Source of the DNA: Euzebya sp. | GTDB lineage: Bacteria > Actinomycetota > Nitriliruptoria > Euzebyales > Euzebyaceae | Direction of reading: 5' to 3' | Length of the DNA stretch: 54,310 nucleotides | Assembly: GCF_964222135.1 (NCBI RefSeq) | Contig: NZ_CAXQBR010000092.1 | Location: forward strand, 1-54,310 | In this document: piece after piece, positions 8,146 to 44,664 of the stretch | Numbering within the stretch: position 1 is the stretch's first letter | How the letters are laid out: the number at the start of each line of letters is the position of its first letter | Notes under the pieces: generated by a model | What the model was told of the DNA's origin: nothing | The model's input: only the letters and a program-made list of their open reading frames with translations | Database searches by the model: none | Program-made: the position numbers and the translations under genes

Positions 8146-9162
8146 ATGGCCACCGCAACCGTCACCAAGCTGACCGGGACCCAGAAGGTCGCCATCCTGC
8201 TGATGTCCCTCGGCCAGGAGCGGGCCTCGAAGGTCCTCAAGACCATGCGCGAGTCCGAGGTCGCCGAGATCGCGGCCGAGATCGCCCGGATGCCCACGGT
8301 CGACACCGAGGTCGTCGAGTCGGTCCTGACCGAGTTCAAGGAGATGGTCGCCGCCAAGGTCAACATCGCCGTCGGCGGGCTCGACTACGCCCGGGCGATG
8401 CTCGAAGAGTCCCTCGGCAGCCAGAAGGCGTACGAGATCATGGAGCTGCTGAGCGCCCAGATCGTCGAGGCGCCCTTCGAGTTCCTCCGCAACACCGACC
8501 CGCGGCAGGTGCTCAGCTTCATCTCCGAGGAGCACCCCCAGACCATCGCCCTGGTGCTCGTGCACATGCTGCCCGACGCCGCCGCGATGGTGCTCGGCTC
8601 GCTGCCGGAGTCCCTCCAGCGCGACGTCGCGGTGCGCATCGCCATGATGGACCGGACCTCACCGGACGTGATCGACCGCGTCGAGCGGATCCTCGAGCGC
8701 AAGCTCTCGAGCGTCCTGCAGCAGAGCGACTTCTCCGAGGCCGGCGGCGTCGGCTCGCTCGTCGACATCCTGAACCGGGCCGACCGCGGCACCGAGCGCC
8801 TCATCCTCGAGGGCCTCGAGCTCGCCAACGAGGAGCTCGCCGACGAGGTCCGCCAGCTCATGTTCGTCTTCGAGGACATCGTCACCCTCGACGACCGGTC
8901 CGTGCAGCTCATCCTCCGCCAGGTCGACAACAAGGACCTGGCCGTCGCCCTCAAGGGCGTGGCGGCCAACGTCAAGGAGAAGATCACCAAGAACATGTCC
9001 CAGCGCGCCGGCGAGGCCCTCATCGAGGAGATCGACCTCATGGGCCCCGTCCGCCTCAAGGACGTCGAGACCGCCCAGGGCTCCATCGTGCGGGTCATCC
9101 GCTCGCTGGAGGAGGCCGGCCAGATCGTCCTGAGCAGGAGCGGTGATGAGTTCATCAGCTGA
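8146..9162 (+). CDS. fliG: Flagellar motor switch protein FliG
   Basis: Switch-complex protein that transmits torque from the stators. 338 residues with the three expected domains: N-terminal FliF-binding (KVAILLMSLGQERASKVLK), middle domain with the EHPQTIALVL motif, and C-terminal torque domain with FVFEDIVTLDDRSVQLILRQ and DLAVALKG, charged residues expected to face the stator. Normal length. The 3' end overlaps fliH by 17 bases. Confidence 0.97.
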   Translation: MATATVTKLTGTQKVAILLMSLGQERASKVLKTMRESEVAEIAAEIARMPTVDTEVVESVLTEFKEMVAAKVNIAVGGLDYARAMLEESLGSQKAYEIMELLSAQIVEAPFEFLRNTDPRQVLSFISEEHPQTIALVLVHMLPDAAAMVLGSLPESLQRDVAVRIAMMDRTSPDVIDRVERILERKLSSVLQQSDFSEAGGVGSLVDILNRADRGTERLILEGLELANEELADEVRQLMFVFEDIVTLDDRSVQLILRQVDNKDLAVALKGVAANVKEKITKNMSQRAGEALIEEIDLMGPVRLKDVETAQGSIVRVIRSLEEAGQIVLSRSGDEFIS

Positions 9163-9817: not shown

Positions 9818-11205
9818 CCACCACCCTCGCCTCGCCCTACGACCGGGTCATCGACCGGGTCCGCGCCGCCGCCGCCCCGCGCGTCAGCGGCCGGGTCGGG
9901 CGGGTCGTGGGCTTGAACCTCGAGGTGGAGGGGCTCGACGCCGCCATCGGCGACGGGCTCGAGGTCCACACCGCGAAGGGCCGCCTCCCCCTCGAGGTCG
10001 TGGCCGTCGGCGACCGCGGTCTGGTCTCCATGCCCTTCGGCGACCTGACCGGCGTCGGCGTCGGCGACCCGGTCACCGCGACCGGCTCGACCGCCACGAT
10101 CCGCGTCGGCGACGCCCTGCTCGGTCGCGTGCTCGACGGCCTCGGCCGCCCGATCGACGACGGCCCGCCCCTCGAGGTCCGCGGCTCGGACGACCCGTCC
10201 GGGCCCGGTCTGGTCGAGGTCGGCATCGACGGCACCCCGCCGCACCCGCTGCGCCGGCGCCGCGTCGACACGCCGCTCGGCCTCGGCGTCCGCGCCGTCG
10301 ACACGCTCATCACGTGCGGCCAGGGCCAGCGCATGGGCATCTTCGCCGGCTCCGGCGTCGGCAAGTCGTCCCTGCTGAGCATGATCGCCCGCGGCAGCGA
10401 GGCCGACGTCACCGTCCTCGCGCTGATCGGCGAGCGCGGCCGCGAGGTCGCCGAGTTCATCGAGCACGACCTCGGCCCGGAGGGGCTGGCCCGCTCCGTC
10501 GTCGTCGTCGCCACCTCCGACCAGCCCGCGCTGGTGCGCCTGCGCGCCGCGTTCGTCGCCACCCGCATCGCCGAGCACTTCCGCGACCAGGGCCGCGACG
10601 TCCTGCTGATGATGGACTCCCTCACCCGCTTCGCGATGGCGCAGCGCGAGGTCGGCCTGTCCGCTGGCGAGCCGCCCGCGACCCGCGGCTACCCGCCCAG
10701 CGTGTTCACCCTCCTCCCCAAGCTGCTCGAGCGCGCGGGCTGCGGCGAGACCGGGTCGATCACCGGCCTCTACACCGTGCTCGTCGAGGGCGACGACATG
10801 CAGGACCCCGTCGGCGACACCGCCCGGTCGATCCTCGATGGCCACATCGTGCTGTCCCGCCGACTGGCCACCGCCGGGCACTTCCCCACCATCGACGTGC
10901 TCGAGTCCGCCAGCCGCGTCGCCGGCCGCGTCACCAGCCCGGAGAACGCCGCCGCGGCGACCGAGCTGCGGCGTCTGATGGCCGCGCTGCGCGACGCCCG
11001 CGACCTGGTCGACATCGGTGCCTACGCCGCCGGGTCGAACCCCGACGTCGACCGGGCGCTGCAGCTCGACGGGGCGATCACCCGGTTCCTGCGCCAGCCG
11101 CTCGGCGAGCAGACCCACCCCGAGCTGGCCTGGCGGACGCTGCGCCAGATCCTCGGGCACGGCCGCACCGATGCCGGCGTGCCGATGGCCGGAGGCGAGC
11201 GGTGA
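9814..11205 (+). CDS. fliI: Flagellum-specific ATPase FliI
   Basis: F1-beta-like hexameric ATPase that helps deliver export substrates. 463 residues with Walker [15 protein letters not shown] at about residue 174, Walker [12 protein letters not shown] about 85 residues later, the ERGREVAEF segment and the [11 protein letters not shown] region of the family. GTG start overlaps the fliH stop by 4 bases; its own TGA overlaps the GTG of fliJ. All catalytic motifs are intact. Confidence 0.97.
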
Positions 11206-11654
11206 AGCGCTTCGCCTTCCGCCTCGACCGCGTCGCCCGCGTGCGCGAGATCGAGCGCGACCGCGCCCGCGGCACCTGGGTGCAGGCCCGGGCCGAGGAG
11301 GTCCGGATCACCGAGCGCCTGGCCGACCTGCGCACGGCCGCCGAGGCGCAGGCCGCCGGGTACGGCGACGTCGCCACCCAACCGGACCTGCGCGCCGCGG
11401 CGTTCCGCGCCGGGCTGCGCGCCCAGGCCGTCGAGGTGGCGGTGACCGAGCTGCGCGACGCGAGCGCCGTCACCGCCGAGGCCGCCGGCGTGCTGCACGT
11501 CGCCCAGCGGCGCGTCGACGCGCTCGGCCGCCTCGAGGCGCGCAAGCGCGAGGAGTGGACCGAGGAGTCCCGCCGCGCGGAGACCCTCGAGCTCGACGAC
11601 CTGTCGACGACCCGCGCCGGTCGCACCCCGATGGGGGCGGAGGGTCCGCGATGA
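11202..11654 (+). CDS. fliJ: Flagellar export protein FliJ
   Basis: 150-residue coiled-coil protein starting [20 protein letters not shown], the usual FliJ opening (F-x-L-x-x-V-L/A-x-x-R-x-x-E). The body is one long Arg/Ala/Glu-rich helical hairpin. FliJ resembles the F1 gamma stalk and links FliI to FlhA. It overlaps fliI by 4 bases and the following murein hydrolase by 4 bases (ATGA). Confidence 0.88.
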
Positions 11655-12832
11655 CCGTCACCACGCCGGTCTCCGCGCGCATCGCGTCGATCCAGAGCCG
11701 CATCGCGGGCATCCAGGGGATCATGGGCGGCGGCCGCGGCGGCCGCCTGGGACCCGAGGAGCTCTTCGCCGACCAGCTCGCCACGCAGATGGCGTCGCAG
11801 TCGCCGAGCACCACGCCCCCCGTCGCGCCGATGACGCCGTTCACGCCGGTGACGACCCCGTCCATCCCCGGCATGCCGACCCCGTCCGGCCCATCGGCGA
11901 CCGCGACGCTCGCACCGTTCACCCGGCCGGGCAGCGCGGCGGCGGTGGCCTACAGCCGCCCCGGCGCGACCGTCGCGACCGCGTACGAGCGGCCGGCCTC
12001 CGCCGATCCCCTCGCGCCGGGCAGCGACTTCGGCTCGGCGGTGGTCGCGATCGCCAGCCGCGAGCTCGGCACCCCCTACGTCTGGGGCGGCGAGTCCCCC
12101 GGCGGGTTCGACTGCTCGGGCCTGGTCCGCCACGCGTACCGCCAGGCCGGCATCGAGCTGCCCCGCGTCAGCCGCGACCAGGCCCGCGTCGGCGAGGCGG
12201 TACCGAGCCTCGACCAGGCCATCCCCGGCGACCTCGTCGCCTTCGGCGACCCCGTGGACCACATCGGCATCTACGCCGGCAACGGCCAGATGGTCGTGGC
12301 CCCGCGGACCGGCGACGTCGTCAAGGTGCAGGACATCACGCGGCCGATCACCGCGATCCGCCGGGTCGTGCCGGCCGGGACCACCGTCGCCGGACCCGCG
12401 GTCGCCGGACCCGCGGCGGCCGCCCCCGCAGCGCCGGGTGCCAGCACCCTCGCCGGGGTGCCCTACGCCGCCGAGCTGAGCGCCGCCGCGCAGCGCCACG
12501 GGATCGACCCGCGGCTGCTGGCCGCGATCGCCCGGGCCGAGTCGGGGTTCAACCCGTCCGCGGTCTCCCCCGCCGGTGCCCGGGGCCTGATGCAGATCAT
12601 GCCGGCGCCCGCGCGGTCGCTCGGCGTCGACCCGATGGACCCCGCGCAGGCTGCCGACGGCGCCGCGCGGTACCTGTCCGAGCAGCTCCGCCGCTTCGGG
12701 ACCGTCGAGCTGGCGCTGGCCGCCTACAACGCGGGCCCCGGCAACGTCCAGCGCTACGGCGGGATCCCACCCTTCAACGAGACCCGCACGTACGTGACCA
12801 GAGTCCTGTCCTACATGGGAGAGATGCCATGA
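11651..12832 (+). CDS. Two-domain murein hydrolase (NlpC/P60 plus lytic transglycosylase) in the flagellar operon
   Basis: 393 residues. A Met/Thr/Pro-rich N-terminal third is followed by an NlpC/P60 peptidase domain (about 120-240; [20 protein letters not shown] with the catalytic Cys, then DHIGIYAG with the catalytic His). A Pro/Ala linker leads to an SLT lytic transglycosylase domain (about 275-390; [20 protein letters not shown] with the catalytic Glu, and [12 protein letters not shown]). It would cut both peptide stems and glycan, fitting a role in opening the cell wall for the rod, as FlgJ does elsewhere. No standard signal peptide is visible, so export through the flagellar system is a reasonable guess. 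The usual third catalytic His of NlpC/P60 is not evident at MVVAPRTG. Overlaps fliJ and fliK by 4 bases. Confidence 0.9.
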
Positions 12833-16194: not shown

Positions 16195-17859
16195 ATGTCA
16201 CGTCCTGCCCTCCACCCCTCCCCCGCACGGCGGGCCGCCGTCCCCGTCGTGGTGCTGGCCGTCCTCCTGGCCCTGCTGCCCACCGCGGCGCGGGCCGAGT
16301 CGACCTGCATCGAGGACGCCCTCGCGGACGTCGAGGACCAGGCGAACGGCGAGCTGACCGGCGAGGTGCCCGAAGCCGACATCATCGCCGGCTGCATCGA
16401 CTACACCGACGAGTCCTTGGTGGTCAGCGTCGGCGTCGTCGCGCCGACGGACCCGGCGACCCACCCGGCGTGGGAGGGCTTCAGCTCCGCCGTCGGCGCG
16501 GCCATCGACGTCGGTGGCGAGCTCGACTCCGAGGGCAACGCCATCGAGGAGTTCGACCTGAACTACGGCCGGTTCGAGGGTGAGATCGTGGCGAGCGTGT
16601 TCGTCCACAACTCCGTGGAGGTCGCCTGCCAGGCCGACGCCACCTTCGACGGGACCCGCTACGTCATGACCGTCCCGCGGGACTGCCTGGGCGACCCCGA
16701 CGAGGTGCAGGTCGCGCCGTTCATCTTCTGGTCCTCCTCCGTCGAGGGGCAGGAGTCGGAGGGCTACTTCGACGAGGTGCCGACCCGACCGGCGTTCAGC
16801 GAGCCGCAGACCACCGCGGCCGACCCGGCGACCGCCGTCCAGCGCCTGGCCGGCCTGTCCCGCGTCGACACCGCGATCGCGGTCAGCCAGGACGACTTCG
16901 GCGACGGAGAGGCCGGCGCGGTCGTGCTGGCCCGCGCCGAGGAGTTCCCCGACGCGCTGGTCGCCGCGCCGCTCGCGGTGTCCCTCGACGCCCCGCTGCT
17001 GCTGACACCGGGCTTCGCGGTCGCCCAGGTCGTCGAGGACGAGATCAGCCGCGTCCTGCCTGACGGCGGCACCGTGTACCTCTCCGGCGGTGAGGCGGCG
17101 CTCGAGCCGGCCGTCGCCGAGGAGATCGCGGCGCTGGGCTACGCCGTCGAGCGCGTCGCCGGCGACACCCGCTACGCCACCGCCGTGGAGGTGGCGCGCC
17201 GCGCCGTCGCCGACCCCTCCCTGATCGTGGTGGCGGACGGCAACACGTTCCCCGACGCCCTCGTCGGCGGCTCGCTCGCGGCCAGCCAGGACGGGGTCGA
17301 GATCCTGACGAACGGCACCGAGCTCGACGCCACCGCGAGTGCGTACCTGGCCGAGCACCCCGACGCCGAGGTGCTCGCGATCGGCGCGACGGCCGCCCAG
17401 GCCGTCCCGGACGCCCAGTCCATCGCCGGTGAGGACGTCTTCGCGACCAGCGCCCTGGTCGCCGAGCAGCGCTACCCCGAGGCGAGCGGTGCGGCGATCG
17501 CGAGCGGCACGTCGTTCCCCGACGGCCTGGCTGGCGGCGCGCACGCCGGTCGGCGGGACATCCCGCTGCTGCTGACCCGGCCGGACCTCCTGCCGGACGC
17601 CGTCGAGGCCTACCTGGGCACCATCGCGCCCACCGAGCTGCTGGTCATGTACGGCGGCACCGCCGCGATCACGTACCCGGTGGAGGCGGCCGTCGACGCC
17701 GCCGCCACCGCGGAAGCCCCGACCGACGAGCCGACCGACGAGCCCACGGACGAGCCGACCGAGGAGCCGACCGAGGGGACCTGCCCCCTCCCCCTCCCCC
17801 CCGCGGACGGCCGGTGCCCCAGCGGCACCGGCCGTCCGCATTTGTGCACCGAGGGCTAA
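16195..17859 (+). CDS. Secreted protein with three cell-wall-binding type 2 repeats
   Basis: 554 residues. A signal peptide (Arg start, AAVPVVVLAVLLALLPTAARA, cleavage near residue 31) is followed by a 180-residue unique domain with three Cys. Three CW_binding_2 (PF04122-type) repeats follow at about 215-300, 310-400 and 410-500, each with R-x-x-G-x-x-R-x-x-T/F-A and FPDAL/FPDGL motifs (for example EFPDALVAAPLAV). These repeats bind wall polymers in Gram-positive bacteria. A PTDEPTDEPTEEPTE linker ends the protein. The last ~19 residues are encoded by a perfect 16-bp hairpin and are probably not functional. The TAA stop is also the -35 box of the flbD promoter. AGGAG precedes the ATG. Role next to hook and motor genes is unknown; a bushing between wall and flagellum, or filament-associated surface layer, is speculation. 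Confidence 0.85.
   Translation: MSRPALHPSPARRAAVPVVVLAVLLALLPTAARAESTCIEDALADVEDQANGELTGEVPEADIIAGCIDYTDESLVVSVGVVAPTDPATHPAWEGFSSAVGAAIDVGGELDSEGNAIEEFDLNYGRFEGEIVASVFVHNSVEVACQADATFDGTRYVMTVPRDCLGDPDEVQVAPFIFWSSSVEGQESEGYFDEVPTRPAFSEPQTTAADPATAVQRLAGLSRVDTAIAVSQDDFGDGEAGAVVLARAEEFPDALVAAPLAVSLDAPLLLTPGFAVAQVVEDEISRVLPDGGTVYLSGGEAALEPAVAEEIAALGYAVERVAGDTRYATAVEVARRAVADPSLIVVADGNTFPDALVGGSLAASQDGVEILTNGTELDATASAYLAEHPDAEVLAIGATAAQAVPDAQSIAGEDVFATSALVAEQRYPEASGAAIASGTSFPDGLAGGAHAGRRDIPLLLTRPDLLPDAVEAYLGTIAPTELLVMYGGTAAITYPVEAAVDAAATAEAPTDEPTDEPTDEPTEEPTEGTCPLPLPPADGRCPSGTGRPHLCTEG
17803..17839 (+). terminator. Perfect 16-bp hairpin inside the 3' end of the cell-wall-binding gene
   Basis: GCGGACGGCCGGTGCC (17803-17818) pairs without mismatch with GGCACCGGCCGTCCGC (17824-17839) over CCAGC, then ATTTGTG. 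It lies before the stop codon rather than after it; all three frames are open through it. Confidence 0.7.
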
Positions 17860-24559: not shown

Positions 24560-24728
24560 GCAACCCAGAGCGTCAGCACCCGACTGCACGTCGTCCTGTC
24601 GGTGTTCGGGCGGAACTGCCCGTCGTCCGGCACCCTCCCGGACGGCGTGCTGGCGGGGCGAGCGGCGGGACCGGATCGCGTGCAGTTGGCGCCGGCACCC
24701 TGACCACGTCGCGTAATGCACAACTCCT
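24560..24728 (+). other. Intergenic region after flhB
   Basis: About 170 bases without a plausible gene on either strand. It holds scattered GC-rich inverted matches (for example around 24636-24655) but no clean terminator. The last 20 bases become AT-rich and lead into the ArsR promoter. Confidence 0.5.
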
Positions 24729-24756
24729 TTGCACAATGTCTTTGCAATGGTAGTGT
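24729..24756 (+). promoter_or_regulatory. Promoter/operator of the ArsR-type regulator
   Basis: An AT-rich island: TTGCAC (24729-24734), N16, TAGTGT (24751-24756), with the ATG 7 bases further, so the message is probably leaderless. TTGCA (24729-24733) and TGCAA (24742-24746) form an inverted repeat between -35 and -10, a likely binding site for the regulator itself. Confidence 0.5.
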
Positions 24757-24763
24757 GCGCTTC

Positions 24764-25366
24764 ATGCGCGATGCCGACCGCCCGTCCGAGGTCCGCCGGG
24801 TCCACCTGGACTCCGCGAAGCTGCAGTGCCTCGCCCACCCCCTCCGCTCTCGGTTGCTGAGCGCCCTCCGGCTCGAGGGCCCCGCGACGTCGGCGAAGCT
24901 GGCCCAGCGGCTCGGGACCAACACCGGCGCCACGAGCTACCACCTGCGCCAGCTCGCCGACGTCGGGCTGGTCGCCGAGGACCCCGACCGGGGCACCGCT
25001 CGCGAGCGGTGGTGGCGAGCGGCGCACGACATGACGTCCTGGTCGGACGCGGACTTCGAGGACGACCCCGACGACCGGGCGGCGAACGAGTGGCTGCTCG
25101 GCTCGATCCACCGGCAGAAGGCGCTGTGGCGCGACGACTGGCTGGTGACCCGCAACGACTGGCCGCGGGCGTGGCGCGAGGCCGCGACCACCACCGACCT
25201 CCGCCTGCGCCTGACCCCGTCGCAGCTGGCCGCGTTCAAGGACGAGGTGTGGGCCCTCGTCGAGCGGTACGAGCAGGCCCCACCCGATCCCGCGCCCGAC
25301 GACGAGCCGACCGAGGACGTCCTGGTCCTGCTCGACGCCTTCCCCGCCCGCGAGGTGAGGCTGTGA
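24764..25366 (+). CDS. ArsR-family winged-helix regulator
   Basis: 200 residues. N-terminal winged helix at about 15-90: LAHPLRSRLLSALRLEGPAT, SAKLAQRLGTNTGATSYHLR and QLADVGLVAED match the ArsR/HTH_20 type. No metal-binding Cys cluster, so it more likely senses an organic ligand or acts through protein contacts; the C-terminal 110 residues are Trp-, Asp- and Glu-rich and unassigned. Similar regulators sit before MFS efflux genes. The frame extends upstream to 24716, but ATG 24764 follows the promoter directly. Stop TGA overlaps a GTG that would start the downstream gene in an undisrupted arrangement. Confidence 0.88.
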   Translation: MRDADRPSEVRRVHLDSAKLQCLAHPLRSRLLSALRLEGPATSAKLAQRLGTNTGATSYHLRQLADVGLVAEDPDRGTARERWWRAAHDMTSWSDADFEDDPDDRAANEWLLGSIHRQKALWRDDWLVTRNDWPRAWREAATTTDLRLRLTPSQLAAFKDEVWALVERYEQAPPDPAPDDEPTEDVLVLLDAFPAREVRL

Positions 25367-25450
25367 CCGCGAGCCTGGGAGCGGTCGCAGGACAGGCCGG
25401 GGGGCGACCCCGGCGCGCCAGCGCGGGGGTCGGGCTGTGACCGCGAGCCT
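25359..25450 (+). repeat. 18-bp direct repeat duplicating the arsR-stop/MFS-start junction
   Basis: GGCTGTGACCGCGAGCCT occurs at 25359-25376 and again at 25433-25450, 74 bases apart. Each copy carries GTGACC: the first overlaps the arsR stop, the second is the actual MFS start. Between them is a 25-codon frame from GTG 25363 that ends in TGA overlapping the second GTG. Confidence 0.85.
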
Positions 25451-26768
25451 CACCGTGCGCGAGGCCCGACGGCGGTTCCTCGTCCTGCGGGGGCTGCGGT
25501 GGCTGCCCACCGGCATCACGATGCCCGTGCTCGTCCTGCTGCTGCTCGACCGCGGGCTGGGCCTGGCCCAGGTCGGGGTCGCGCTGTCCGCCCAGATGGT
25601 GGCGGTCATGGCGCTCGAGCTGCCGACCGGCGGGCTGGCCGACGCGCTGGGCCGACGTCGCGTCCTCCTGCTCGCCGGCGGGTTCCAGATCGCGGCGCTG
25701 ACCCTCCTCACCGTCGCGGGGGACGTGTGGCTGCTGGCGGCCACCTTCGCCCTGGAGGGGGTCTACCGCGCCCTCGAGAGCGGCCCGCTCGACGCCTGGT
25801 ACGTCGACGCGGCGCAGGCCGCCGACCCCGACGCCGACATCGAGGGGGCGCTCGCGACCGGCGGGGTGGTGCTGGGGCTCGCGATCACCACCGGCACGCT
25901 GGTGTCGAGCGGCCTGGTCGCCTGGGACCCCGTCGCGGCCGTCGACCCGCTGGTCCTGCCCGTCCTGGCCGCCCTCGTCCTGCGGATCGTCGAGCTCGCC
26001 GCCATCCACCGGCTGGTGGTCGAGGTCCGCCCGTCGACGACCGACGCGCCCGCAGGTGCGGGACGGGTTCGGAGCGCGGTCCGTCGCACCCGGGCCGAGG
26101 CGCTCGCCGTCCCCTCGATCGTCCGCGACGCGCTGGGCATGGTCCGCCGGAGCCGCGCGCTGGTCGCGCTCGTCGGCATCGAGCTGCTCTGGGGGCTCGG
26201 CATGATCGCCTTCGAGGTCCACACGCCGGCACGCCTCGAGGTGGTCCTCGACGAGCCGGCCGCCGCCGCAGCCCTGATGGGGCCCGCGAGCGCCGCCGGA
26301 TGGGGGGCCTCGGCCATCGCCGCGGGCATGGCACCTCGGCTGACCCGGCTGCTCGGCGCGACCGGGGCCGGGACCGCGCTGCTGGCCGTCCAGGCCGCCG
26401 CCGTGGTGGGCATCGGGCTGGCGTCCGGTCCCCTCGGGATCGTCAGCGCGTTCGTCGGCACCATGGCGGCGCACGGCGCGGCCAACCCGGTCCACCAGGG
26501 GCTCCTCCACCGCGCGGTGACCGACCCGGGACGGCGCGCCACCGTGCTGTCGGCGAACAGCCTGATGGCGTCCGTCGGCGGGGGCATCGGCGCCATCGGG
26601 CTGGGCGCGCTCGCGGACGCGACCACCATCTCGACCGCGGTGCTGGTGGGCGCCGCAGCGCTCGCCGTGGCTGCACCGGGCTACCAGCTCGTCCGCCGGG
26701 CAGCGGCCGGTCAGGAGCCTCCCGCACCGCCGCTGCGTCAGGCGGGTGGCGAGATCACGTCGAGGTGA
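25437..26768 (+). CDS. Major facilitator superfamily transporter, probable drug exporter
   Basis: 443 residues, 12 TM helices. Motif A-like loop after TM2 (LPTGGLADALGRRRVLLLAG) is intact. The second half has LTRLLGATGAGTALLAVQAA and VFVGTMAAHGAANPVHQGLL-type sequence. Family and the adjacent ArsR regulator suggest substrate-induced efflux. It sits within the flagellar island between flhB and flhA but is not flagellar; the pair looks like an insertion. GTG start coincides with the second copy of an 18-bp repeat. The 3' end overlaps a small convergent - strand frame by 31 bases. Confidence 0.88.
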   Translation: MTASLTVREARRRFLVLRGLRWLPTGITMPVLVLLLLDRGLGLAQVGVALSAQMVAVMALELPTGGLADALGRRRVLLLAGGFQIAALTLLTVAGDVWLLAATFALEGVYRALESGPLDAWYVDAAQAADPDADIEGALATGGVVLGLAITTGTLVSSGLVAWDPVAAVDPLVLPVLAALVLRIVELAAIHRLVVEVRPSTTDAPAGAGRVRSAVRRTRAEALAVPSIVRDALGMVRRSRALVALVGIELLWGLGMIAFEVHTPARLEVVLDEPAAAAALMGPASAAGWGASAIAAGMAPRLTRLLGATGAGTALLAVQAAAVVGIGLASGPLGIVSAFVGTMAAHGAANPVHQGLLHRAVTDPGRRATVLSANSLMASVGGGIGAIGLGALADATTISTAVLVGAAALAVAAPGYQLVRRAAAGQEPPAPPLRQAGGEITSR

Positions 26769-27176: not shown

Positions 27177-29303
27177 GTGCCCACCTTGCGGAATCGCTCG
27201 ATCGCCCCCATCGCCGTCCCGGCCGCCGTCATCCTCATCGTCGTGATGATGGTGGTGCCGGTGCCGACTGCGCTGCTGGACCTCCTGCTGGCGATGAACA
27301 TCGCCGCCGCGCTGCTCGTCATCCTCGCGTCGATGCAGGTCAACCGACCCCTCGACTTCGCGGTCTTCCCGTCGCTGCTGCTGGTCCTGACCCTCTTCCG
27401 GCTGGCCCTCAACATCTCGACCACCCGGTTGATCATGCTGGACGGCTACGCCGGCAAGGTCATCGAGGCGTTCGGCAACTTCGTCATCGGCGGGTCGCTG
27501 GTCGTCGGCCTGATCGTCTTCCTCATCCTGGTCGTCGTGCAGTTCATGGTGATCACGAACGGCGCCGGCCGCGTGGCCGAGGTCGGCGCGCGGTTCACCC
27601 TCGACGCCATGCCCGGCAAGCAGATGGCGATCGACGCCGACCTGAACGCCGGCCTGATCGACGAGGCCCAGGCCCGCAAGCGCCGCGAGGAGGTCGCCGC
27701 CGAGGCGGACTTCTACGGCGCGATGGACGGTGCGTCGAAGTTCGTCAAGGGCGACGCGATGGCGTCGATCATCATCACCGCGATCAACCTGATCGGCGGC
27801 CTGGTGATCGGCGTGGTGCAACAGGGCATGGACGTCGGCGAGGCTGTCTCCACCTTCAGCCTGCTGACCGTCGGCGACGGCCTGGTCTCCCAGCTCCCCG
27901 CGCTCCTGATCTCCATCGCCTCGGGCATCATCGTGACCCGCGCGGCCACGGCCGGCGACATGGGCACCGACGTGGTGCTGCAGTTCAGCCGCCAGCGCGG
28001 CGCCATCCGCCTCGGCGGCGTGGCGGTCGCCCTCATGGCGCTGCTCCCCGGCCTGCCGTTCGTGCCGTTCGTCGCGGTCGGTGCCGCCCTGTGGCTCACC
28101 TCCAGCAAGCTCCCCGACCCCGAGGAGGCCAAGCGCCGGGCCGCCGAGGCCGAGCGCGAGCGCGAGGACGAGGCGATGCGCGCCGCGCTGCCCGACCCGA
28201 ACTCCCCCGAGGCCATCCTCGAGGACGTCCAGGTCGAGAGCCTGCAGCTCGAGATCGCCTACGACCTCATGGACCTGGTCGACCCCGCCCGCGGCGGCGA
28301 CCTGCTCGACCGGGTGAAGGCCCTGCGCCGGAAGGTCGCCGGCGACCTCGGCATCATCATCCCGCTGGTCCGCACCCGCGACAACATCGAGCTGCCCCCG
28401 AGCACCTACTCGATCCGCGTCCACGGCGTCGAGCTCGGCCGCGGCACCGCGCCGGTCGGTCACGTCCTCGTCATCGGCGACGACACCCCGGCGTTGGGCG
28501 AGGGTGGCGGCGACGTCCCCGCCCGCACCGGCATCGCCGCGCTGCCGGGCACCCAGACCGTCGAGCCGGTCTTCGGCCTGCCGGCCCGCTGGGTCCCCCA
28601 GGAGTACCGCCAGCAGGCCGAGGTCATGGGCGCCACGGTCGTCGACCGGTCGTCGGTCATCACGACCCACCTGGCCGAGGTCGTCCGCACGAACGCCGCC
28701 CGGCTGCTCAGCCGGACCGACACCAAGCTGCTCGCCGAGCTCGTCAAGGCCCAGGCCCCCACGGTCGGCGAGGAGCTGACCGCCAGCCAGCTGACCCTCG
28801 GCGACGTGCAGAGCGTCCTGGCCGAGCTGCTGGCCGAGCAGGTGCCGATCACCGATCTGGTCCGGATCTTCGAGGTGCTGACCGAGCGCGGCCAGCACAC
28901 CCGCGACGTCGAGCCGCTGGTCGAGTCCGTCCGCGCGATGCTCGGCCCGGCGATCTCCTCGGCGCTGGCCGTCGACGGCCGGCTGGCCGTCCTGGTCCTC
29001 GACCCGATGACCGAGCACGCCGTCGTCGAGGCGGTCCGCCCCGGTGCGACCGGGTCGTTCCTGGCCCTGGACCCCCAGCTGTCCGAGCGCCTCGCCGTCG
29101 AGGTCGCGCGGTTGGCCGAGCAGGCCGAGCAGCAGGGCGAGTCCCCCGTGATCGTGTGCTCCCCGCAGGCCAGGCCGGCCCTGCGCCGCCTGGTGTCCCA
29201 GGTGATCCCCCGCCTGCCGGTGCTCGGCTACGCCGAGATCGGCCCCCAACTGACAGTCGAGACCGTAGGAGTGGTGAACGTTGGCAACCCCGCAGCGGTT
29301 TGA
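27177..29303 (+). CDS. flhA: Flagellar export apparatus protein FlhA
   Basis: Nonameric export gate and substrate-docking platform. 708 residues. Eight TM helices in the N-terminal 310 (ALLDLLLAMNIAAALLVILA, PLDFAVFPSLLLVLTLFRLA, LNISTTRLIML), the FHIPEP-type loop represented by QFMVITNGAGRVAEVGARFT, and LDAMPGKQMAIDADLNAGLI, with the conserved Asp/Arg residues for proton-driven export. The soluble C-terminal domain from about 345 ends HNEI/LGYAEI-like (LPVLGYAEIGPQLTVETVGV). GTG 27177 is taken as start; the ribosome site is weak. Overlaps the FlhF-like gene by 23 bases. Confidence 0.95.
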   Translation: MPTLRNRSIAPIAVPAAVILIVVMMVVPVPTALLDLLLAMNIAAALLVILASMQVNRPLDFAVFPSLLLVLTLFRLALNISTTRLIMLDGYAGKVIEAFGNFVIGGSLVVGLIVFLILVVVQFMVITNGAGRVAEVGARFTLDAMPGKQMAIDADLNAGLIDEAQARKRREEVAAEADFYGAMDGASKFVKGDAMASIIITAINLIGGLVIGVVQQGMDVGEAVSTFSLLTVGDGLVSQLPALLISIASGIIVTRAATAGDMGTDVVLQFSRQRGAIRLGGVAVALMALLPGLPFVPFVAVGAALWLTSSKLPDPEEAKRRAAEAEREREDEAMRAALPDPNSPEAILEDVQVESLQLEIAYDLMDLVDPARGGDLLDRVKALRRKVAGDLGIIIPLVRTRDNIELPPSTYSIRVHGVELGRGTAPVGHVLVIGDDTPALGEGGGDVPARTGIAALPGTQTVEPVFGLPARWVPQEYRQQAEVMGATVVDRSSVITTHLAEVVRTNAARLLSRTDTKLLAELVKAQAPTVGEELTASQLTLGDVQSVLAELLAEQVPITDLVRIFEVLTERGQHTRDVEPLVESVRAMLGPAISSALAVDGRLAVLVLDPMTEHAVVEAVRPGATGSFLALDPQLSERLAVEVARLAEQAEQQGESPVIVCSPQARPALRRLVSQVIPRLPVLGYAEIGPQLTVETVGVVNVGNPAAV

Positions 29304-30726
29304 GGGTTCCTCCATCGAGGCGGTGCTGGCCGAGGTCCGCACCGTCCTCGGCAGCGACGCCGAGATCGTCGAGGCCAACAAGATCCGGTCCGGAGGGCTG
29401 GGCGGCTTCTTCGCCAAGGAGTCCTACGAGGTGTACGCGACACCGGGTGCCGGGCGGTCCAGCACCGACAGCACCGGTGCCGCGGACGGCAGCGCAGGGG
29501 TCACCGGCCCCGCGCCCACCGACCCCGCACCCACCGGCGCCTCGGCGAGCGCGGCCAGCGTCTCGTCGGTCTCCGCGTCCCTGCTCGACCTGGCCGACCG
29601 GGTCAGCGCCGCGGAGTCCGGGGTCGCAGCCGAGGCCCCGACCCGCGACGTGACCCCCGACGACACCTCGGTGGCCCACCGCCTCGGCGACCTGCTCGCC
29701 GGACGTCCGACCAGCGCACCGGCGGACTTCGAGCCGCTGTCGACCGCCGAGATGCCGCGGATCAGCACCGAGGGCGGCGCGTTCAACGACGTCCTCCAGC
29801 GCATAGCGGCCGACGCCGGTCCCGACATCGCCGACGCCGTCGGCGCGCGACTGGCTCCGGCGCCGACCCGTCCGGCCGGCCTCGCCACCAGCCACCCGCA
29901 CATCCCGACCGTCGACCACGAGGCCATCGCCGACGCCGCGGCTGCCGCCGTCGCCGCAGGCACCGCCGACGCGGGGCAGGTCCCGGTCCCCGCCGCGGAG
30001 GTGCCCGACGCCGCTCACAGGGCCGTCGAGCCGGTCGGTGGCGCCGACCTGACGGACACCGCCGACCTCGCCGCCGTCCAGACGGCCGGCGTCCTCGCCG
30101 CGGACGAGCGCACCGCGCGCCTCATGTCGTGGCTCGAGCGGGGCAACCTCCCCCGCACGACGGTGATGACGGCCCTCCGCGGGCTGCCCACCATGGCCGA
30201 GCTGCCCGACACCACAGGCGTCGTGGTCGCCGTCGTCGGCGAGCGGGCCCAGGCCCTCCGCCTCTGCAAGCAGCTCGCGAAGGCCGTCGACGCGGACCCC
30301 GACGCGGTCGTGCTCGCCTCCGCCTCCTACCGCGGCAAGGCCGTCCCGGAGTCCCAGCGCATCACCGACGCCGAGGACGCCCAGCGCGAGCGCCTGAGCT
30401 GGCGCCGCCGCGCCACCCCGACGTTCGTCGCCGTCGAGTGCGGCCCGGGCCTCCGCGGCGCCGACAAGGAGTGGACCCGCACGGTCGTCGACACCCTCGA
30501 CCCCCACCAGGTCATCGGCGTCGTGGCCGCCTCGCGCAAGACCGAGGACGTCGAGGTGTGGCTCCAGCAGGTCGGCGGCGTCGACGGGCTCGCCCTCGAG
30601 GACGTCGAGCACACCTCCACCCCGTGGGCCGTGCTCGCCCTCGGCGTCCCCGTCGCCTACCTGGACCGCGTGCCTGCGACCCCGGAGACGTGGACCGACG
30701 CGCTCGCGGGGGCGATCGCGGCATGA
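29281..30726 (+). CDS. flhF: FlhF-like protein lacking GTPase motifs
   Basis: 481 residues from TTG 29281, supported by AGGAG 9 bases upstream. The first 60 residues (FEGSSIEAVLAEVRTVLGSD, then AEIVEANKIRSGGLGGFF) match the FlhF N-terminal module. A long Ala/Pro-rich stretch follows. Residues about 290-480 align in layout with the SRP-type G domain: ASYRGKAVPE follows the first core strand and LALGVPVAYLDRVP ends it, like the GQxVPxD region of FlhF. But the P-loop is VVVAVVGERAQALRLCKQLA instead of GPTGVGKTTT, and DTAGR and TKLD motifs are absent. It is probably a non-GTP-binding relative. Position between flhA and a PilZ gene supports a flagellar role, perhaps in placement or number. Confidence 0.8.
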   Translation: MATPQRFEGSSIEAVLAEVRTVLGSDAEIVEANKIRSGGLGGFFAKESYEVYATPGAGRSSTDSTGAADGSAGVTGPAPTDPAPTGASASAASVSSVSASLLDLADRVSAAESGVAAEAPTRDVTPDDTSVAHRLGDLLAGRPTSAPADFEPLSTAEMPRISTEGGAFNDVLQRIAADAGPDIADAVGARLAPAPTRPAGLATSHPHIPTVDHEAIADAAAAAVAAGTADAGQVPVPAAEVPDAAHRAVEPVGGADLTDTADLAAVQTAGVLAADERTARLMSWLERGNLPRTTVMTALRGLPTMAELPDTTGVVVAVVGERAQALRLCKQLAKAVDADPDAVVLASASYRGKAVPESQRITDAEDAQRERLSWRRRATPTFVAVECGPGLRGADKEWTRTVVDTLDPHQVIGVVAASRKTEDVEVWLQQVGGVDGLALEDVEHTSTPWAVLALGVPVAYLDRVPATPETWTDALAGAIAA

Positions 30727-31376
30727 GCGACGCCGGAGCGCGCTGGCCGGCCGCGGGGTCGCTGGTCGAGCTGAGCTGGCGGGTGCAGACCTTCGACGCG
30801 TCGGTCCTGCTCGCCGAGGACGAGGAGCTCATCTGCACGCCGTGCCCGCGCGCGGGCCTGCTCGTCCCGCACGCGCCGGTGGAGGCGATGGTGCGCTGGA
30901 CCGACGCCGACGGCGCGTACACCCGGCCCGCCACGATGGTCCTGGCCGACGGCGGGCACGTCCGGCTGGAGGCGTCCGGGACGACCTGTCGGACCCAGCG
31001 CCGCGCCTACGTGCGCGCCCCGGTCGCCGTCGAGATCGTCGTGGAGGACCTCGAGTCCGAACGACCGGGCGTCGCGTTCGCGTTCGACGCCGACGAGCAC
31101 GCGACCAGCGGCTGGACCAGCGACCTCAGCGAGGGCGGGGCACGCGTGTTCCTGGACGGTCCCCCGCCGCCGCAGGGCGCCCACGTGGCCGTCCGGCTCG
31201 TGGTGGACGGCGAGGCCGTCGACGCGCGGGCGCAGGTGACCCGGATCTCCGAGGGTCCCGACCGCTGCGAGGTCGGGCTGACCTTCGAGCAGCTCGCCCC
31301 CTCGGACGCCGATGTGATCAGACGACAGGTCTTCACCGCCCAGGTGGAGGCGCGACGGAACGGAGTGCTGCGATGA
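30723..31376 (+). CDS. PilZ-domain c-di-GMP-binding protein (YcgR-like)
   Basis: 217 residues. An N-terminal YcgR/FlgP-like split barrel (about 1-95; VELSWRVQTFDASVLLAEDE) precedes a PilZ domain (about 97-210). Both ligand motifs are present: the RxxxR element in TQRRAYVRAPV and DxSxxG in SDLSEGGARVF. Family members slow or bias the flagellar motor when c-di-GMP is bound. It overlaps the FlhF-like gene and the next gene by 4 bases each, so it is produced with the flagellar export genes. Confidence 0.9.
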   Translation: MSDAGARWPAAGSLVELSWRVQTFDASVLLAEDEELICTPCPRAGLLVPHAPVEAMVRWTDADGAYTRPATMVLADGGHVRLEASGTTCRTQRRAYVRAPVAVEIVVEDLESERPGVAFAFDADEHATSGWTSDLSEGGARVFLDGPPPPQGAHVAVRLVVDGEAVDARAQVTRISEGPDRCEVGLTFEQLAPSDADVIRRQVFTAQVEARRNGVLR

Positions 31377-31744
31377 CGACGGACACCACGAGGTCGACCG
31401 AGCCCGCGAAGTCGATCAACACCGTCTGGCGGTTCCCGCTGATCGTGGGGCTGTCGGTGGTGCTCGGCGCGCCCGTGCTGAGCGACATGGCGCTGATGAA
31501 CGCGAGCGACCTCGCGAACGCCGGCGTGCGCTACCTCGCCGCGCTGGCACTCGCCTGGTTCGGGGTGTCGACGGTGTTCCGGGTCATCGACCGCTACCAG
31601 CACGAGAACGCGATGGCGATCCGGCTGGCCGAGCTCGAGGTGGCACGGGCCGAGGCCGAGCGCCTCGCCGCCCTCCGGGCGGAGGCGGCCGCCGCCGAGG
31701 CCGCCGCGGCGGAGGACGACGCCCGCGAGATGGAGTCGGTCTGA
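31373..31744 (+). CDS. Two-TM protein with Ala/Glu coiled tail
   Basis: 123 residues: short polar N-terminus, TM1 at about 20-38 (FPLIVGLSVVLGAPVLS), TM2 at about 48-67 (AGVRYLAALALAWFGVSTVF), then a charged helix (AMAIRLAELEVARAEAERLA) extending into the cytoplasm. No family recognised. The 4-base overlap with the PilZ gene links it to the c-di-GMP response; it could anchor or relay the PilZ protein, which is inference. Confidence 0.8.
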   Translation: MTTDTTRSTEPAKSINTVWRFPLIVGLSVVLGAPVLSDMALMNASDLANAGVRYLAALALAWFGVSTVFRVIDRYQHENAMAIRLAELEVARAEAERLAALRAEAAAAEAAAAEDDAREMESV

Positions 31745-43548: not shown

Positions 43549-44664
43549 GTGCCCACGACTGAGCAGGTCATGGCGGCCCTCGGGACGGTCGACGACCCCG
43601 AGATCGGCCGGCCGATCACCGAGCTCGACATGGTCGACGGCGTGGCGATCGACGGTGGCGCGGTCACCGTCGACGTCCTCCTCACCGTCCCCGGCTGCCC
43701 GATGAAGGACACGATCACCCGCGAGGTGACGGCCGCCCTGACCAGGGTGGAGGGCGTGACGGCGGTGGACGTGCGGCTGGGCTCGATGACCGAGCAGCAG
43801 CGGGCGAAGGTCGCCGAGAAGGTCCGCGGCGGGGCGGGCAAGGCCCCCGGCGGGCAGGTGGTCATCCCGTTCGCCCAGACCGACTCGCGGACCAAGGTCA
43901 TCGCGATCGCCTCCGGCAAGGGCGGGGTGGGCAAGTCGAGCGTCACCACCAACCTCGCGGTCGCGCTGGCCCAGCAGGGCCAGAGCGTCGGGGTCCTCGA
44001 CGCCGACGTGTGGGGCTACTCGATCCCGCGGATGCTGGGCGTCGAGGGACGTCCGGTCGCGTTCAACAACATGGTGATGCCGCTGCAGGCGCACGGCGTC
44101 AAGGTGATCTCGATCGGCTTCTTCGTCGACGCCGAGAAGCCCGTCATCTGGCGCGGTCCGATGCTGCACCGGGCGCTCCAGCAGTTCCTCGCCGACGTCC
44201 ACTGGGGCGACCTCGACTTCCTGCTGTGCGACCTGCCGCCGGGCACCGGCGACATCGCGATCTCCCTGGCCCAGATGCTGCCGAACGCCGACATGCTGGT
44301 GGTCACCACGCCGCAGCAGGCCGCCCAGCGGGTGGCCCTGCGGGCCGGGCAGATGACCGCCCAGACGGGCATGCGGGTGACCGGCGTGATCGAGAACATG
44401 GCCACGTTCGTCGCCCCGGACACCGGCACGGAGTACCGGATCTTCGGCGAGGGCGGCGGACAGCTGCTGGCCGCCGAGCTCGACACCGAGCTGTGGGCGT
44501 CGATCCCGATCGACCCCCGCCTGCGCGAGGGATCCGACAGCGGCACGCCGTTGGTCGCGAGCGACCCGGACGCCCCGGCCAGCCAGCGGTTCGCCGAGGT
44601 CGCCCAGCGGCTGGCGAAGTCCCGCACGTCCCTCGTGGGCCGGTCCCTGCCGCTCAAGTTCTGA
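43549..44664 (+). CDS. mrp: Mrp/ApbC-type P-loop ATPase
   Basis: Iron-sulfur cluster carrier family. 371 residues from GTG 43549: N-terminal MIP18/DUF59 domain (LGTVDDPEIGRPITELDMVD), linker, then the deviant Walker A IASGKGGVGKSSVTTNLAVA, DADVWGYSIPRMLG, and CDLPPGTGDIAISLAQMLPN. The C-x-x-C pair that bridges the cluster in most Mrp proteins is replaced (ENMATFVAPDTGTEYRIFGE), as in actinobacterial Mrp. TAGGAG lies before GTG 43549; the longer ATG 43507 start overlaps a TACCAT -10-like box. Confidence 0.93.
   Translation: MPTTEQVMAALGTVDDPEIGRPITELDMVDGVAIDGGAVTVDVLLTVPGCPMKDTITREVTAALTRVEGVTAVDVRLGSMTEQQRAKVAEKVRGGAGKAPGGQVVIPFAQTDSRTKVIAIASGKGGVGKSSVTTNLAVALAQQGQSVGVLDADVWGYSIPRMLGVEGRPVAFNNMVMPLQAHGVKVISIGFFVDAEKPVIWRGPMLHRALQQFLADVHWGDLDFLLCDLPPGTGDIAISLAQMLPNADMLVVTTPQQAAQRVALRAGQMTAQTGMRVTGVIENMATFVAPDTGTEYRIFGEGGGQLLAAELDTELWASIPIDPRLREGSDSGTPLVASDPDAPASQRFAEVAQRLAKSRTSLVGRSLPLKF

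Follow-up and report, generated by a model that had tools for sequence, protein, structure and literature searches.

An FlhF-derived protein that appears to have lost its GTPase machinery, in Euzebya and other flagellated Actinomycetota

The usual description of FlhF is of a GTP-controlled switch. What, then, is to be made of a gene that lies in the flhF position of a flagellar cluster and encodes a protein with none of the four nucleotide motifs of the family? Such a gene occurs in the 54,310-nucleotide stretch of Euzebya DNA analysed here (the window). It runs from 29281 to 30726 on the + strand (481 amino acids from a TTG start), overlaps the end of flhA (27177..29303, +; TIGR01398, E 5e-239) by 23 nt and has GGAG about 10 nt upstream of its start, so that it sits directly after flhA and has a good ribosome site, as originally predicted. 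On its other flank, its stop is overlapped by the start of a gene for a PilZ-domain protein (30723..31376, +), which in all 13 complete loci comes after flhG, and then comes a gene for a small protein with a hydrophobic stretch (31373..31744, +), in a place equivalent, by eye, to that of the small protein of the complete loci. Codon-position G+C (0.76/0.58/0.95) fits a coding gene of the Euzebya genome. The flagellar genes matched in the window are fliC, fliD, fliS, fliF, fliG, fliH, fliI, fliK, flgD, flgE, fliL, fliM, fliN, fliO, flhB and flhA, with csrA lying beyond them.

Resemblance to FlhF begins at the N-terminus. The match covers the first 50 or so residues and corresponds to the FliG-interaction domain (FID), the head of the B domain (29293..29442, +), which is recognized by profile, by TIGR03499, by AF2 modelling and by Foldseek. 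TIGR03499 (NCBIfam) reaches residues 5–70 only (E 5.4e-7), and its 29.9 bits are far under the curated cut-off of 174.15 bits; our FID profile gives E 2.5e-24, although that profile itself includes the Euzebya protein. A model of residues 1–59, made from an alignment with the relatives L017 (Actinotalea sp. K2) and L018 (a Micrococcales MAG), consists of a strand followed by a helix and two more strands, at pLDDT 82.6. Its top eight Foldseek rows are all chains of PDB 9en1, the FID of Shewanella putrefaciens FlhF, at probability 1.00 and with TM-scores (by target) of up to 0.83, yet with E-values of 0.018 or more, and PDB sequence searches matched FlhF through the FID only (E 0.26, 0.012 and 0.23). 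The TIGR03499 match bears out the earlier assignment of this module to the FlhF type. In PMC11236974, the B domain, within the first 60 residues of S. putrefaciens FlhF, is described as necessary and sufficient for FliG binding. The presumed partner, fliG, is in the window (8146..9162, +), with all three of its domains present. After the FID comes a long Ala/Pro/Thr-rich linker (29443..30120, +), poorly conserved in alignment A1.

Beyond the linker, likeness has to be sought by other means. A Pfam search with the protein gave no match, and a pattern search after residue 90 found no GxxxxGK[ST], D[TS][YF]R, D[TV][AP]G or [TS]KxD. According to the alignment columns, the place of the P-loop (G1; 30229..30279, +) is taken by AVVGERAQALRLCKQLA (residues 317–333), two residues shorter than GPTGxGKTT, and the region LEDVEHTSTP (30595..30624, +) replaces TKLDETNTPG at the G4 place; the string and the absence of DTAGR and TKLD were correctly given in the original prediction. 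The glycine that ends strand 1 (G320, invariant in alignment A1) has been retained together with the helix that follows it, as might be expected if the rebuilt loop still bound nucleotide or some other small ligand; but with all four nucleotide motifs gone, and a shortened loop without Lys-Ser/Thr, this seems to us unlikely.

Could a working flhF and flhG instead lie elsewhere in the genome, or in the part missing from what is a 111-contig draft, 97.1% complete? A second flhF was rejected: the full SRP GTPases matched by PF00448 are two, both on contig C97 and each at 246 bits, and we read them as ffh and ftsY; beyond these there is only an ArsA-like match of 24 bits. For flhG, too, the candidate failed, as the best FlhG match in the genome is an Mrp gene at 43870 (50 bits), and no FlhG partner with DQAxxLR was found there. 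The ParA-type matches that we read were Mrp (C92), two Soj/ParA-like (C49 and C79) and two ArsA-like proteins (C65), those on C22, C37, C67, C104 and C108 being left out of this reading. The near relatives G001 (in two contigs) and G002 are alike, each with three PF00448 matches (two full, one of about 25 bits) and with no FlhG match above 48.4 bits, so the chance that the missing genes have simply been overlooked is close to negligible. The canonical flhF elsewhere that was to tell against the original prediction thus did not turn up. Another genome of the same genus, G003, has neither flhA nor the flhF-derived gene.

How widespread is the condition? Of the 396 genomes sampled from the phylum, 60 have FlhA, and in 54 of the 60 an FID frame follows flhA, starting between -14 and +195 nt from its stop (the others are G050, G087, G233, G280 and G309, and G326, where the contig ends). 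Across all 396 genomes the FID profile matches those 54 FlhA genomes, and among the 336 FlhA-less genomes only G118 at E≤1e-5, with G053 and G059 near 5e-4. The G118 match (C107:7204-7356), where FlhA was not found, perhaps reflects an assembly gap. FlhA loci without an FID gene after flhA were L103, L112, L130, L131 (which ends 713 nt past flhA) and L133. Complete proteins number 51: one from each of 49 FlhA genomes, and those of L017 and L018, which belong to the Actinomycetia and carry the motif-free protein; five further FID frames run off their contigs. Working FlhF accounts for 13 of the 51, 12 with all four motif patterns and one (G007) with DFFR for DTYR. Four are partly worn (G080, G198, G209 and G322), lacking DTYR but keeping the P-loop, DTAG/DTPG and TKxD, and seven are P-loop-only (G081, G113, G123, G177, G188, G199 and G219), without DTAG/DTPG, three of them with SKxD. 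Every motif is absent from all 11 window-type proteins (L017 and L018 among them; G082, G366 and G384 sorted here by eye), from all 14 WS-type proteins (G189 sorted by eye) and from two unclassed proteins (G265, a short frame, and G378, with masked letters). The WS type is a second motif-free relative of FlhF, with an FID and a C-terminal domain of the form WSxxxLxRLGLP ... WLHLVVGG, found at L083, L084, L085, L088, L090–L092, L094, L096–L098, L105, L122 and L123. The genomes with FlhG (305–633 bits) are the very 13 that have working FlhF, and in them its gene lies directly downstream of flhF; in the other 47 FlhA genomes the best match is 60.2 bits. Loss of the GTPase is not peculiar to the Euzebya gene, but is common to the members of one clade and runs parallel to that of FlhG. 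The partly worn and P-loop-only proteins resemble the Euzebya one in their place after flhA and in the absence of FlhG, but differ in having kept the P-loop (and, in the four, DTAG/DTPG and TKxD as well).

Is the motif-free C-terminus an old G domain at all, or an unrelated Rossmann-like domain that has been joined to an FID? The failure of Pfam is compatible with the latter, and so is the WS type, whose C-termini gave no hhalign profile match to anything tried, FlhF included, such that a domain swap seems possible within the clade. For the window type the profile comparisons point the other way. A profile of eight window-type C-termini, including that of Euzebya, was aligned locally with that of the 13 working FlhF proteins at E 2.4e-5 (probability 75), improving to E 2.7e-8 (probability 95) when the partly worn proteins were added, and to E 2.2e-10 (probability 97) with the P-loop-only proteins as well, each E-value applying to one comparison. 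When the profile comprised only four sequences, from the Euzebya protein's own family, working FlhF was matched at E 7e-4 (probability 27) and working plus partly worn FlhF at E 1e-7 (probability 94). Because long single sequences make poor hhalign targets (those of Ffh, FtsY and Soj gave no match with the window-type profile), shuffled and reversed controls were used. The alignment with working FlhF spans 161 columns and scores 40.6, whereas 60 column shuffles average 12.3 (sd 2.1) and never exceed 20.6, and control targets gave E 0.58 (reversed), 0.71 (FlhG) and 0.44 (PilZ). The region so aligned (residues 312–470; 30214..30690, +) is referred to here as the pseudo-G domain. It includes a KxxD (KTED; 30538..30549, +) after a core strand, a feature present by eye in 13 of 13 working FlhF proteins (12 by script pattern) and retained in 8 of 11 window-type proteins (7 by pattern), whereas the Euzebya Ffh and FtsY have GQEA and GQNG at this position.

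The structural evidence has to be weighed alongside this. The model of the pseudo-G domain, from three sequences, is of low confidence (mean pLDDT 50, pTM 0.52), which leaves some room for an unrelated domain; Foldseek found nothing for it at E 0.001 or better, its order being led by a designed P-loop fold and FtsY, with FlhF (2px0) at rank 18. In VIA-align, on the other hand, ranks 1–30 are all GTPases of the Ffh/FtsY/SRP54 type, the best with Z 8.5 (rmsd 3.4 over 143 residues), and the FlhF structures 8r9r and 2px0 reach Z 7.2, with the caveat that a Z of about 8 may mean no more than a shared fold or arrangement. Helices predicted before the core, where an N domain would lie, have pLDDT of only 34–39, too low for such a domain to be recognized. 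Scanning of viral contigs with profiles A1 and A3 found no relatives. Taking sequence profiles and model together, descent of the C-terminus from an SRP-type G domain appears well supported, and an unrelated domain correspondingly improbable. The FlhF-like layout noted at the outset has thus held up against shuffling, the predicted fold, for all its low confidence, is nearest to SRP GTPases rather than to something unrelated, and the claim of an FlhF derivative without GTPase machinery is well supported by motif loss, profile–profile score and fold matches alike.

The order of events can be approached through a tree of FlhA (62 rows, with P-loop state scored for 49), the root of which was chosen, not inferred, and was placed on the working side in agreement with the order of classes in PMC10746217. 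Over the 49 scored rows, P-loop state changes once. All 25 motif-free classed proteins fall within one clade of 32 FlhA rows (support 100/100), the remaining rows being five that were unreadable and two genomes (G087 and G309) without the gene after flhA. Given the chosen root, loss of FlhG preceded that of the P-loop, for 11 proteins still have a P-loop although FlhG is absent. A single branch does not fit: G007, which has working FlhF, is placed with three genomes in which no FID gene follows flhA. The FlhA of the window family groups with those of G065, G221, L017 and L018 rather than with f2 and f3, further families of its order, suggesting that the flagellar cluster was transferred.

Motifs that wear away progressively across a phylum might also be the mark of a decaying remnant without function. 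G087 and G309, members of the motif-free clade with flhA but without the gene after it, would fit such a remnant, and show that the gene is not indispensable. When the window is compared with its relatives in the genus, the protein also changes faster than FlhA: C-terminal dN/dS against G001 and G002 is 0.55–0.61, compared with 0.244 for flhA (G000/G001), indicating faster evolution of the pseudo-G domain, although a third-position G+C near 95% probably limits synonymous change. Against this, in the close pair G001/G002 the dN/dS of the C-terminal 200 residues is 0.041, next to 0.037 for flhA (linker, 0.431; FID, 0.315), and the C-terminus of a working FlhF pair (G024/G063) gives 0.032. Moreover, 29 of the 32 clade members have kept the FID gene, the others being G087, G309 and G326 (where the contig ends). 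A functionless remnant is thus very improbable. The profile–profile match, the structural matches to SRP GTPases and the strong purifying selection seen in a single close pair favour a pseudo-GTPase that has been retained, not a wreck, the case for function resting mainly on that pair and on retention over the clade.

It seems fairly likely, then, that the protein is a direct descendant of FlhF in which an SRP-type GTPase has turned into a nucleotide-independent, FliG-binding scaffold, working outside any FlhF/FlhG GTP cycle. Binding of FliG, the lack of GTP binding and the scaffold role are what we infer. By analogy with Shewanella FlhF, the FID would most likely bind FliG and aid the first assembly of FliF with FliG. 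The pseudo-G domain, its core fold kept and apparently still under selection, would probably serve in protein contact, through self-association or as an anchor; a GTP on/off cycle should no longer be possible, and FlhG, the activator of that cycle, has disappeared along with it. With neither FlhG nor a GTPase cycle, the lineage may have given up the function of setting flagellar number and place while keeping the handling of FliG.

The Euzebya protein shares with FlhF (TIGR03499, PF00448) the N-terminal FID, the long linker, the place after flhA, the G-domain core and the KxxD; it differs in having no P-loop, DTYR, DTAG or TKxD, no FlhG and, at the low model confidence there, no recognizable N domain, and in falling far below the TIGR03499 cut-off. 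Its closest experimental counterpart is a laboratory construct: in PMC12713375, Pseudomonas aeruginosa whose FlhF has no G domain still forms flagella, though non-polar ones, in about 65% of cells, polar placement being driven by the G domain. There too the FID is present and the GTPase gone, but in the present lineage the loss is natural and clade-wide, and a pseudo-G domain has been kept. An inactive GTPase is not tolerated in every case, as mutations in the GTPase motifs of Vibrio FlhF abolish both polar localization and flagellar formation (PMC6092412). Searches of open-licence papers gave no description of a naturally GTPase-dead FlhF. A lineage that retains the FliG-binding part of FlhF together with a G domain that is dead, and that lacks FlhG, would mean that two jobs of FlhF can be parted, and makes it possible to test directly what FlhF does without cycling. 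A broader reading, to which we give an even chance, is that escort of FliG by the FID is the separable and longer-lasting job, that after FlhG was lost the switch wore away stepwise, and that flagella in a large branch of Actinomycetota are now assembled with an FlhF scaffold free of nucleotide, number and place being set in some other way; if so, the motif-free branch is a natural separation-of-function experiment. A 2023 study (PMC10746217), which names Acidimicrobiia, Nitriliruptoria and Actinomycetia as the later actinobacterial classes, reports FlhF to be missing from the classes that lack FlgFG; that report should be qualified, as a motif-free FlhF is present in at least part of this group.

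The flagellar cluster of the window holds some further genes that are worth recording. Between flhB and flhA (24716-26768) there are, by eye, a helix-turn-helix-like and a transporter-like gene; a protein with cell-wall-binding CWB2 repeats is encoded within the cluster at 16195-17859; and between fliI and fliK (11018-12832) a single protein combines NlpC/P60 and transglycosylase SLT domains, and is possibly a rod-related wall enzyme.
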